Program-made: the position numbers and the translations under genes | Notes under the pieces: generated by a model | Told to the model about the DNA's origin: nothing | Seen by the model: the letters and a program-made list of their open reading frames with translations, nothing else | Database searches by the model: none | Part shown: positions 48,701 to 54,700 of the stretch, one piece after another | Numbering within the stretch: the first letter of the stretch is position 1 | Layout: each line of letters begins with the position of its first letter | Source of the DNA: Liolophura sinensis | Lineage: Eukaryota; Mollusca; Polyplacophora; Chitonida; Chitonidae | Assembly (NCBI RefSeq): GCF_032854445.1 | Contig: NC_088301.1 | Span: 26,830,402 to 26,894,401, forward strand | Direction: 5' to 3' | DNA: 64,000 bases

Positions 48701-51700
48701 TAGTGTATTATAGAAGTTTGACACCACAACCCACTCTATTAAGCCCGCAGTGTTGGTTATACACTGTGATCTCTGATAAAATTCTCAGATGCTTGTAGAG
48801 GTGTTTAGTCATGAAGTTGGTTACCTTCCACCAGTGTGGCACACCCACTGAGCGTGATCTATACGGGGTGAAAATCTGTGCATCACATACTCACCAAAGG
48901 TCAGTGGTTTACTTCGAGATCTCAACTTTCTTTCCCTCCGTGCAACTGCACGCTTGATATACACGTATGAGCAAAATATTCTTGAATTCAAAATTAAATA
49001 TCAATTTAATTTAATTTAAACTTTACCTTTTATCTCCACAGGCAGCACTACGGCCCACAGACGTGGTGTTGGAGGTGGGGCCTGGTACTGGAAACATGAC
49101 CGTTAAATTACTTGAAAAAACAAAAAAGGTAAGAACATGTCAGGAGCAGAAATGTGTTTTTGCTATAAACATAACTGGAGGCAAAATTCTTGGAAAGCTT
49201 AATTTGATAGCAAATACTTAGACAGAATTACAGTGAATTGAAATGTGAAAATTTTATTAAATTTAAAACATTAAGAATCAAAACTCTGTTTAATTGTGAC
49301 AATTAGCTTTATGAGTCACTGTCAGTCGGTTTATTGCTCCTTCAGTTTGTCTGATTTTTTTTAACATGAACCATTCACTTAAACGATGGGCCTGTGTGTA
49401 AGATGACGTAAAACTTGCCTGTCCGAGACAGATGATTAACAGACATCAATTTTGCAACTTTTCTCATAAATCGTTACATCATTGTGCTATAACTTGGACA
49501 ATGTTAAGAAAAAAAGTGAGGAGAAATATGACTTAAAAGGTTTCAGAAAAGAGGCCTCGATGTTATAAATGAAAAAATATCTCCATTATATGACAGTGCC
49601 ATACAGAAGTGCTAGATACAGGGGTTCGAGATTATGTGCATTTGTATATGGGATTATTGTAATTGACAAAATTAAAGAGCCTATACCAGAGATGTTTGGC
49701 AACAAATCCATCAATTTCAGTCTAAATGAAATCAAAATTTTGCAATTATTTTAGCATATCCCAGGTAAATAACCTTTCACAAGATGTCAGCCTTGTCAGA
49801 GCATGTGCTATCATTCAAAATGGGTGATAAAGTATCTAAAATTTATAACATGGGTTCTCACCGATGCAGTCACTGTGATTTCAAGTCCAGCTTATGCTGG
49901 CTTCCTCTCCGGCCATATGTGGGAAGGTCTGCCAGCAACCTGCGAATGGTCGTGAGTTTCCCCCGGGCTCTGCCCAGTTTCCACCCACTGTAATGATGAC
50001 TGCCGTCGTATAAGTGAAATATTCTTGAGTATGGCGTAAAACACCCATCAAATAATAAATAAATAAATAAATAAATATAACATGGGTCACTTTATAACTT
50101 TTTCATATTTTAGAGTTACTTTAACAATATAAATAGTGCAGGTACGAATCTGATATTTGTTATAATCTTAACCATTCTTGGTAAATAGAGAAAATATGAT
50201 TTGATTAGTGAATATAGATTTTCTGCCAAAACTCTCCTTGACTGTCTCTACAGTGTCATGCTTGACTTCATGTGGGATGTTGCAGCTGCTGTGAATTTGC
50301 TCTGTTCTTATGAATTATTCTCTATTTAGGTTGTGGCTTGTGAGATTGACCCCAGGCTTGTGGCTGAACTTCAGAAACGTGTTCAAGGAACGTAAGTTAC
50401 ATGCTTTATCAACGTTGTATTTTGAAAGATTTGAGTTTGTTGAGTTGCACAAGATAGATGTGTTGGGAACATCACTATGCAACATATACTTAACCAGGTC
50501 CAAATACAGCTTTTGAATTTCAGTATACAAATATAGAACAAAATAATAAAAAGATATTTTTGAACTATTGAAATATATGGAATATTTAATAGCAATTTAA
50601 AACCTTTTTTTTTGTCCAAAATATTAATTAATTAATGCATGTGAAATCAAATCTAATTATAATGCAAATGAGATATGGGTATTTATGTTACATCTTCTTC
50701 CCCCCATTCAGTCCAATGGCCACCAAACTCCAAGTCATGGTCGGTGATGTGTTAAAAACTGATCTTCCCTTCTTTGATGTGTGTGTGGCAAATTTGCCAT
50801 ATCAGGTAAACAAACGTATATTGCTGATTTGATATTAAGTGGGGTCAGTCAGCAAGCTCTATTTTTTGTGCCATAAGTCGTCTAGATATGGTCCAGTTTG
50901 AAGAACATTTTACATGTTAACTTTATGGAACCTCATATCATGTATTCTCATTTGTATCCGAGTATGAACTGCTCCAAATATTGTTCTATAGTTATAAAAT
51001 TTTGTGTTTAAGCTCATTATTTGTAACCTCATGTCACCTCTAAAAACCATTCTGATCCATGTATAAGTTTTGCATGCTTAATGATTGCAAATCTGATCCA
51101 TGCATAAGTTTTGCATGCTTAATGATTGCAAATCTGATCCATGCATAAGTTTAGCATGCTTAATGATTGCAAATCTGATCCATGCGTAAGTTTTGCATGC
51201 TTAATGATTGCAATGATTCTTATTGGCTGTTAGTGTGTGTGGAAGAATTGTATCGAGCAAATATTGTTCGACTTGACCACGCAGATCAGATTTTGGAACT
51301 AGTTTCAAAATTTGATCTACGAGGTTGTGTGGCCATAAACCAAACCCATTTTTAAATATTTATTGTTCGTTATTAGTTCATTGAATTTGCTTGTAAATTT
51401 ATTTTTTGTTTCCCCAGATTTCATCCCCTTTTGTATTCAAACTTCTACTTCACAGACCATTCTTCAGGTGAGCATACTTCCTTGTCTAGAAAGGATTAGT
51501 GAAAGCAACGGTGGTCCTGATATTGCCAGAATACTTAATAATTTGATCTAATTATTCATTGCATACATGTATGTTTGAGCATGACGCTCCTGACTTTTGA
51601 AGCTGTTTGATTTGTTCTTGCCAGGTGTGCAATCCTGATGTTCCAGAGAGAGTTCGCTCAGCGTCTGGTGGCCAAACCTGGCGACAAGTTGTACTGCAGA

Positions 51701-54700
51701 CTCTCTGTAAACACACAGCTTTTGGCCAGAGTGGATCATCTGATGAAGGTGAGTTGTACTGCAGACTCTCTGTAAACACACAGCTTTTGGCCAGAGTTGA
51801 TCATCTGATGAAGGTGAGTTGTACTGCAGACTCTCTGTAAACACACAGCTTTTGGCCAGAGTTGATCATCTGATGAAGGTGAGTTGTACTGCAGACTCTC
51901 TGTAAACACACAGCTTTTGGCCAGAGTGGATCATCTGATGAAGGTGAGTTGTACTGCAGACTCTGTGTAAACACACAGCTTTTGGCCAGAGTTGATCATC
52001 TGATGAAGGTGAGTTATACTGCAGACTCTCTGTAAACACACAGCTTTTGGCCAGAGTTGATCATCTGGTCAAGGTGAGTTACACGTGCTAGCGCTGCACA
52101 TTTACCCAGGAGCCTCCCACCAATGTGAGTTCAAGCCCAGCTCAAATGCTGGCTTCATCTCCGGTCATATGTGGGATGGCCTGCAAGTAACTTGCGGATG
52201 GTTGTGGTTGTTACCTTTCTTGAGTATGGCGTAAACACCAATCAAATCAAATCGAACGAGGAAAGTGGGTTGTACTGTAGACTCTGTATCCATACATCTT
52301 TTGGATGAAGGCGAGTTATACTGTAGACTCATGGCCATAGTTGATTATCTGATAATAGTGAGCAGTACTTTGCCATAATAGTGAGCAGTACTTTGCAGTA
52401 ATAGTGAGCAGTACTTTGCTGTAATACTGAGCAGTACTTTGCAGTAATAGTGAGAAGTACTTTGCAGTAATACTGAGCAGTACTTTGCCGTAATAGTGAG
52501 CAGTACTTTGCATTAATAGTGAGCAGTACTTTGCCATAATACTGAGCAGTACTTTGCTGTAATAGTGAGCAGTACTTTGCAGTAATAGTGAGAAGTACTT
52601 TGCAGTAATACTGAGCAGTACTTTGCCGTAATAGTGAGCAGTACTTTGCAGTAATAGTGAGCAGTACTTTGCCATAATACTGAGCAGTACTTTGCTGTAA
52701 TAGTGAGCAGTACTTTGCAGTAATAGTGAGCAGTACTTTGCAGTAATGGTGAGCAGTACTTTGCCATAATACTGAGCAGTACTTTGCTGTAATAGTGAGC
52801 AGTACTTTGCAGTAATATTGAGCAGTACTTTGCTGTAATACTGAGCAGCACTTTGCAGTAATAGTGAGCAGTACTTTGCTGTAATAGTGAGCAGTACCTT
52901 GCTGTAATAGTGAGCAGTACTTTGCAGTAATACTGAGCAGTACTTTGCACTGTCAGGGGACATGCAGCTTCTTCATCTGAGCTTCTTCATTGGAGTTCTT
53001 CATCCTGTGCAGTGTTATTATAGTGTAGGCTACATAAGTAATCAAACAGAAAACTTTTAGCACAAGTTGATTACCTGATAATAGTACATGTAAATGCTTT
53101 GCTGTCACATTAATATACTTATATATTTTAATTGCCGTGCTTGTATGTCATCAGGTGGGAAAGAACAACTTTCGCCCTCCTCCTAAAGTGGAGTCCAGTG
53201 TGGTCAGAATAGAACCCAGAAATCCACCTCCTGCAATCAATTTTCAGGTAAAGCGTATAAATTTAGGCTCCTAAAGACTTTTGCAGTTTTCCCAGTTACC
53301 CAAAGTTGTTAGGAAAATTTGTTTGCAAAATTTTGGGGGTCAAGTTTGTGACTGTGTTATGTTGAAGCGTGTGTTGTAATGAAGCGTGTGTTGCAGTGAG
53401 GTGCGTGCTGTGATGAAGCATGTGTTGTAATGAAGCGCATGTTGTAATGAAGGGCATGTTGTAATGAAGCGCATGTTGCAATGAAGCATGTGTGGTAATG
53501 AAGCGTGTGTTGTATTGAAGCATGTGTTGTATTGAAGCATGTGTTGTATTGAAGCGTGTGTTGTGATGAAGCGTGTGTTGTAATGAAGCGTGTGTTGTAA
53601 TGAACTGTGTTATGAGGGAGAAGTGCACATGTACACAAAACATAAAGCTAACTTGCCAAAATGTAAAGTGTAAGAAAGGTTGTAACAACGCAGATTCTCT
53701 CCTGTGATTTGTCCATTGAGGGTTTAACCTGTCACTAGTTTGGCTGCAAGTCTTCCAGCAACCTGCGGAAAGTCGTGGGTTTCCACCAGGCTCTGCTGGG
53801 ATTCCTCCCACCAAAATGCTGGCCACTGTCGTATAAGTGAAATATTCTTGAGTACGGCGTAAAACACCAAATCAAATAAATCAATAAATAAATAGTTTGG
53901 CAGCAGCTTTAGGTCAGGAACCTTTGTCATGTATGTGGGATAGGGCAGAGATTTTTTGGGGGCTCTGTTTGGTTCTCACTTTTGTCGTATAAGCGAAATA
54001 TTCATATAGCATTGAACCCCAGTTAGAGTAAATAACGAAGAAATAAAGACTTCTTTGCTGAACTACAAAGGTTAGGCCAGGCACTGAGAATTGATAGCCT
54101 GTATATTGCGACTGAATGGGGCATTATGTCTTGTCTCTTTAGTACAGCATTCCAGTGATTTAAAGGAGAAGAAATTTTAAATATCAAATAAATACCATTG
54201 AAAAGAGTATGCATTTCCTTGCATGTGCATACCATAAAAAAATTCTATGAACTTCAACTTAATAAATTATAAATAAAATCAGCACCAAAATCTGCTGTGG
54301 GCTTCTCCATTTTGCCTAAGAACTAGTCCTGAAGTCTTCTGTGCTAGGAGGAGAATTTCTGTTGGAAACCACCGAAGTGCAGTTCGTACGTTTCTGGTAG
54401 AAAATGTACATGACATGCCAACCGCTTTGGTGATTTCCGCTTGACAATCCTGAAACCGGAATCTTGGACGTAGGTTCCGAGTTTACACGAATAAGCCAGC
54501 AGTTTTAATGACTCTCATTGGTTGAGAGGCAACACACATCCAGCATAAATTGCAGGGTGTTAAAGATTGAGGACGCGATGGACTCAGTGATTTATGCCAG
54601 CTTTGCTGTTTTCAGGCTTTACGTGTATGGCGAGGAAAAATCACAAAATTATGCAGCAGGCACCATCGGATAGAAAAAAAATGTGCTCTTTTCAGCCTAT

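Follow-up and report, generated by a model that had tools for sequence, protein, structure and literature searches.

In the 64,000-nucleotide stretch of DNA from the chiton Liolophura sinensis analysed here (the window; positions 26,830,402 to 26,894,401 of NC_088301.1, contig C7 of the genome searched), the 3′ end of a coding exon of DIMT1 lies inside a tandem array of six 65-bp units, each carrying the same 5′ splice site. We conclude that a minisatellite has very probably grown over the end of this exon, that its first donor is almost certainly in use and its later copies are probably tolerated, and that it is of the same kind as the 'mirages' described in amphioxus. The genome comprises 609,464,459 bases in 632 contigs, and the assembly was first published under the name Liolophura japonica, later corrected to L. 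sinensis (PMC12441733).

The tandem array at a DIMT1 exon end

Exon mapping made ten internal DIMT1 exons, together with the beginning of the final one, readable on the + strand between 46090 and 56509; it did not find the first exon. In a search of solved structures, the protein joined from these exons matched human DIMT1 along its full length (6w6c, E 1.6e-160), and the alignment passes without a gap across the junction made via donor 1. The first structure search, with the exon in the wrong frame, had given no meaningful match. When the genome was searched with the DIMT1 protein, 14 matches were obtained among the best candidates scored, all inside the DIMT1 gene. The exon–intron boundary and the acceptor of the next exon, which starts after TCATCAG, were found where a preliminary description of this DNA, made from the letters alone, had placed them.

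The positions of the array and its donors are given in Table 1. A separate repeat search returned a spacing of exactly 65, and the GT dinucleotides of the six donors are that far apart, as first described. The claim of six exact units held for their number and spacing; the units themselves are 97% alike rather than exact. Copy 1 is identical to copy 4 and copy 2 to copy 3, with a single base separating the two pairs. Relative to copy 2, there is one change in copy 5 and there are three in copy 6, and changes private to copies 5 and 6 are present. The exon tail is indeed repeated together with the start of the intron, but instead of the 62 exon bases first proposed, the unit takes in roughly 60 bases of the exon and the opening five of the intron (GTGAG), with the border blurred by shared bases. 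Searching the genome with the 65-bp unit gave six matches among the best candidates scored, all at this array. All six donors read AAG/GTGAGT (the slash marks the exon–intron border) and are identical from −3 to +6.

Read-through past donor 1 reaches an in-frame TAA, so that every later donor would produce a truncated frame; 65 is not a multiple of three, and on both points the preliminary description was correct. Five exon junctions remain downstream of the truncated frame from donors 2–6, and an mRNA with exon junctions downstream of its stop is expected to decay by the usual rule. The distance from the exon's acceptor is 124 nt to donor 1 and 189–449 nt to donors 2–6. The argument that the first donor must be chosen draws strong support from the gap-free alignment with human DIMT1 over the junction, rather than from RNA. 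Judged from the sequence, it is almost certain that donor 1 serves as the splice site.

The array probably arose when one tandem duplication linked the intron's opening bases (GTGAG) to a point inside the exon, and slippage or unequal exchange later multiplied the unit. The gene would stay functional through use of donor 1 by the spliceosome. Because the donor sequences are identical, position must set donor 1 apart. Of the six it has the shortest distance to the acceptor of its exon, which exon definition would favour, and it is the first transcribed; either positional rule alone would make the later copies harmless. Rare splicing at donors 2–6 would lead to the stop and probably to mRNA decay, and the later copies would be free to grow, shrink and decay.

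Older, decayed stretches of the unit lie deeper in the same intron. The pair of relics at 52258–52352 has a score far above the shuffle maximum of 31, and 0 of 500 dinucleotide shuffles reach it. They are separated from the young array by a dispersed-repeat insert, which we take to be SINE-like (short interspersed element) and whose other copies within the window are 72–85% identical over longer matches (blastn). Since diverged relics of the unit lie deeper in the intron, the array would once have been longer: it probably reached much further, its old part having decayed and been interrupted and its exon-proximal part having been renewed.

DIMT1 also contains a second donor-spanning duplication. 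It consists of two perfect copies of a 22-bp unit at the exon ending at 55981, with donors at 55982 and 56004, and use of the second donor gives TCG TAA. Neither this duplication nor the relics and the insert figure in the preliminary description. Other tandem repeats are present in and around the gene. A 41-bp unit repeated four times (96%, 51051–51213) occupies the intron preceding the exon at 51418 and leaves the splice sites untouched. A 17-bp unit repeated 14 times (53363–53604) begins 115 bp past the donor at 53248, and the donor of the exon at 53155–53247 is outside it. At 57140–57820, 11.4 copies of a 60-bp unit (97%) lie within an open frame of 274 codons, to which no role is assigned.

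Table 1. Features of the DIMT1 locus (window coordinates) and coding exon ends at which donor arrays begin on contig C1
Feature	Position	Strand	Basis
Six-copy array of the 65-bp unit (exon tail + donor)	51687–52080	+	Tandem Repeats Finder (TRF): 6.1 copies, 97% matches, no indels, score 746
DIMT1 coding exon (exon 7 of the preliminary description); last ~60 bases are array copy 1	51625–51748	+	Exon mapping, human DIMT1 alignment
Donor 1, GTGAGT, putative working 5′ splice site	51749–51754	+	Exon mapping, human DIMT1 alignment
Donor 2, identical −3 to +6	51814–51819	+	Sequence
Donor 3, identical −3 to +6	51879–51884	+	Sequence
Donor 4, identical −3 to +6	51944–51949	+	Sequence
Donor 5, identical −3 to +6	52009–52014	+	Sequence
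Donor 6, identical −3 to +6	52074–52079	+	Sequence
In-frame TAA, reached by transcripts spliced at donors 2–6	51773–51775	+	Open frames
Next DIMT1 exon, acceptor TCATCAG/GTGGGA	53155–53247	+	Exon mapping
Dispersed-repeat insert, approximate limits, between young array and older relics	52083–52255	+	blastn of 52081–52260 against window
Pair of relics of the 65-bp unit, diverged and shortened, containing donor-like sites	52258–52352	+	Local alignment score 85
23-bp × 26 array (TAATAGTGAGCAGTACTTTGCAG)	52353–52949	+	Tandem-repeat scan; starts at end of relic 52258–52352
Further diverged unit relic, ending 62 bp short of next exon	52993–53092	+	Local alignment score 49
Donor-spanning tandem duplication, 22-bp unit, two perfect copies	55967–56010	+	Tandem-repeat scan, exon mapping
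Ankyrin repeats exon end			Pfam E 9.8e-12
Antistasin exon end (L011)			Pfam E 3.3e-25
Core-2/I branching enzyme exon end			E 3e-6; 0.004 in second search
Prominin exon end			E 1.4e-9
Alpha-L-fucosidase exon end			Pfam E 2.7e-4, below Pfam cut-off; 1e-10 to tissue alpha-L-fucosidase
Fe-hydrogenase-like exon end (L114)			E 4.4e-13
Raptor, two exons each with a donor array			E 1.8e-15; E 1.1e-7
SUFU exon end			E 8.4e-10; 1.7e-14 in second search
Mot1-like exon end			E 1.2e-10 to helicase-like chain 7zb5_E

Donor arrays at other exon ends

To look for similar structures, pairs of AGGTRAGT at set spacings were listed, up to 100 places for each pattern, all of them in the first ~5.5 Mb of contig C1 (96,433,062 bases). 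Array-like entries were fetched; pairs standing alone were passed over, as were at least two candidate arrays (near 465.6 kb and 5.18 Mb). The 25 tandem-donor arrays fetched included 21 with their 5′ start inside the fetched stretch, L008, L018, L022 and L119 running past theirs. Open frames across the array starts were compared with Pfam; solved structures were searched for seven donor arrays only, and group comparisons are therefore restricted to Pfam. With both kinds of search, 10 of the 21 readable arrays begin at a recognisable coding exon end (Table 1). The Mot1-like protein is so called from its resemblance to the helicase-like chain 7zb5_E (Mot1, BTAF1). The DIMT1 array had been called unusual, which was only partly right: the structure recurs in this genome, and mirages have been reported from amphioxus (PMC3087553).

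Unit length is 22–88 bp among the measured cases. Exact donor hexamers were counted in the fetched stretches of five arrays, including the working donor where present, and numbered 35 (Fe-hydrogenase-like), 20 (Core-2/I, part of the array), 17 (prominin), 12 (ankyrin) and 7 (first Raptor). In the Fe-hydrogenase-like case (L114:1-1701) the exon end is followed by a 40-bp array with its 35 hexamers in 1.7 kb, reaching the end of the stretch. The 81-bp antistasin array (L011:517-1101) is in frame and still matches antistasin in six stretches; read-through could there add cysteine-rich repeats rather than a stop. Clustering of breakpoints just past the donor was considered on the strength of the first cases and rejected, as the exon share of the unit ranges from ~2 to ~60 bases among the twelve arrays measured.

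As a control we used 60 unclustered + strand AGGTRAGT sites among 100 listed in the first 1.9 Mb of C1, the other 40 being omitted; 49 of these 60 sites supplied the 67 open frames that were scanned. By Pfam alone (E up to 0.001), matches were obtained for 7 of 21 donor arrays and for at most 3 of 60 single sites (Fisher p 0.002), and with all 25 donor arrays as the base the p value is 0.006. Compared with single sites of identical sequence, tandem-donor arrays are enriched in real exon ends. No Pfam match came from the 8 reversed-motif arrays with a readable start (best E 0.0017; p 0.14 against donor arrays). In all, 11 reversed-motif arrays had been fetched, 3 overran their stretch, and 10 of 12 open frames were scanned, small ones in L033 and L037 being omitted.

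Acceptor-motif arrays were treated in the same way (21 fetched, 19 with a readable end). A Pfam match was found for one of the 19, L106, at E 4.6e-6; it is weak, being exactly at the cut-off, and sits 12 residues beyond the array, and no stretch passes alone. The difference between 7 of 21 donor arrays and 1 of 19 acceptor arrays has a p value of 0.046, or 0.009 if the L106 match is dismissed, and does no more than suggest that exon ends are commoner at donor than at acceptor arrays. Acceptor array L127 adjoins a long open frame and is, by eye, a repeat without exon sequence. At C1:5645028-5646091, near-identical 44-bp units have acceptor-like borders (TTTTCAG/GTGG), with no Pfam match at the 3′ end, and C1:4326231-4335036 is an array of ~36-bp units with GTAGATGA, about 9 kb long.

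Pairs of AGGTRAGT at spacings of 46–76 number 4252 per 50,973 single sites (8.3%). The share falls to 4.5% when the motif is reversed and to 5.1% and 6.5% with two scrambled versions, and it is 1.9% for the acceptor motif and 1.6% for its reverse. At spacings of 15–45 there are 3075 pairs against 1661 for the reversed motif, and at 77–107, 4412 against 1956. Acceptor-motif pairs at 20–50 number 3540 against 1314 reversed (163,988 and 84,669 single sites). The counts thus point towards donors as well, but we rejected them as proof of a preference for donors, since motifs of like composition come to 4.5–6.5% against 8.3% and a few huge arrays dominate. Because of this dominance, the argument rests on the inspected exons.

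Weighing the explanations

Several observations weigh against a tolerated minisatellite of the mirage kind in which only donor 1 is used. Use of donor 1 alone is deduced from the protein. The relic at 52993–53092 barely passes its control, scoring 49 against a shuffle maximum of 47 (0 of 500 dinucleotide shuffles). The 23-bp array may plausibly derive from the donor portion of the 65-bp unit, but the resemblance is not significant, 182 of 2000 shuffled 23-mers scoring equally. The exon contributes little to some units elsewhere (the last few bases for fucosidase, ~11 for the Mot1-like exon, ~13 for SUFU), and the sample for recurrence is one end of one scaffold. When seven arrays were pooled, donor columns were variable in 19 of 56 cases and other unit columns in 140 of 301, a descriptive count from arrays chosen for their exact donors, which could hint at selection keeping the donors; the Core-2/I array shows the opposite trend (5 of 8 against 16 of 38). 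Conversely, damage by later donors would predict donor loss, and the pooled donor columns are not more variable. Both arguments are weak because the arrays were chosen for exact donors.

The extra donors might instead be regulatory, with some transcripts using donors 2–6, reaching the TAA and being destroyed, so setting the level of DIMT1. All later donors meet the same TAA, the six donors are intact, and the 22-bp duplication in another DIMT1 exon also leads directly to a stop. However, a random frame past an exon soon meets a stop anyway, and the structure recurs at unrelated genes. The antistasin array keeps the frame and meets no stop as far as its fetched stretch reaches, so the stop is not a shared feature. 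Furthermore, splicing is reportedly undisturbed by the amphioxus mirages (PMC3087553). We regard a regulatory function as unlikely: the downstream copies have no demonstrated role of this kind, and nothing in this analysis calls for the nonsense-mediated control raised in the preliminary description.

It is very unlikely that the array records the birth of an intron, that is, an AGGT-holding tandem duplication that is becoming, or has made, an intron (Rogers-type gain). Tandem duplication of AG/GT is a reported route to new introns (PMC3443670), and amphioxus mirages have been proposed as an intron source (PMC3087553), but the duplicated segment already contained a donor and the chiton and human DIMT1 proteins are colinear. 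In an intron gained by tandem genomic duplication both donor and acceptor would lie within the copies, and here none of the copies detected includes the acceptor at 53155.

An assembly artefact, with the number of units wrong, is less probable again. There is a single assembly, from which haplotypic duplications were purged, but HiFi reads (SRX20411988) with a mean of 8,347 bp at 14x should span a 394-bp array (both from PMC11068029). Copies 5 and 6 have their private changes and decayed relics of the unit adjoin the array, leaving this a weak concern. Stepwise (recursive) splicing, with donor 1 joined to the AG of later units and the array removed unit by unit, is scarcely credible: the unit borders read AAG/GTGAGT, which would be restored at each step and leave it silent in the mRNA, but the 15 bases before each AG (GATCATCTGATGAAG in copies 1–5) have no pyrimidine tract and the first step would remove just 65 nt.

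The tolerated minisatellite can be extended into a wider proposal, which we put forward tentatively and think rather doubtful as a whole. Donor arrays at exon ends would number in the hundreds, perhaps up to a thousand, across the genome (extrapolated from 10 in ~5.5 Mb), exon-start arrays would be rare (at most one weak case among 19), the first donor would win and tandem acceptors would be purged. Arrays would persist since the first-transcribed, acceptor-nearest donor wins whatever number of identical donors follows; tandem acceptors would present the wrong site first, and hence be purged. If true, this would provide a natural library for the first-come or exon-definition rule, its arrays ranging from 2 identical donors to 35 or more. 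The choice among equal 5′ splice sites is usually studied with engineered constructs. With identical donors, regular spacing and a copy number that varies between genes, the rule of selection might be readable from existing data, and RNA data from five tissues of this species are public (BioProject PRJNA973839; PMC11068029).

The DIMT1 case shows that an exon end can fall inside a minisatellite while the gene, a highly conserved one with a single locus found, suffers no visible harm. Its main value lies in recurrence: in one genome, many exons are trailed by identical donors, from a few up to dozens of them.

Comparison with mirages and other known systems

Mirages have been described in the amphioxus (lancelet) genes Adh3, TnC and the globins BflGb6 and BflGb9, with similar repeats in PGBD5. 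The Adh3 units are 10–72 bp long, the copy number of mirages varies between haplotypes, and splicing is reported to be undisturbed (PMC3087553 and PMC3902484). In DIMT1, too, the unit spans the exon–intron boundary in six copies and splice signals lie within all of the units. Homogenisation of the inner units with the end unit left out, another mirage trait, might be reflected in the identity of copy 1 with copy 4 and of copy 2 with copy 3 and in copy 6 being the most different, with 3–4 changes from each other copy, but such a reading would rest on very few changes. There are also differences. The chiton arrays are found in a mollusc, at many genes of a small sample, with units of 22–88 bp and up to 35 exact donor hexamers per fetched stretch. 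Donor-side arrays are readily found in the chiton and acceptor-side arrays hardly at all, whereas both sides are reported for the amphioxus globins. Normal splicing is supported in amphioxus by reverse transcription-PCR, while the chiton arrays are known from DNA.

Our literature searches for counterparts in molluscs or chitons turned up nothing relevant, which does not prove absence from print, and the available parts of two molluscan papers (PMC3510168, PMC6905558) do not describe repeats spanning splice sites. As far as these searches reach, a structure described in lancelets is extended to molluscs.

Intron gain by AGGT duplication resembles the DIMT1 array in the tandem copying of a short AG/GT segment, but the DIMT1 segment already spanned a donor and no new intron is seen (compare PMC3443670). 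Ordinary intronic minisatellites (variable number tandem repeats) are common in the window and in the fetched stretches, and share with the DIMT1 array tandem units, partial homogeneity and decay at the far end. The DIMT1 array differs from them in that its first copy is constrained coding sequence with a splice site that is probably in use. The array therefore belongs to a known kind, the mirage, and is neither unique in its genome nor a new kind of structure; what is new, as far as the searches reach, is the phylum.

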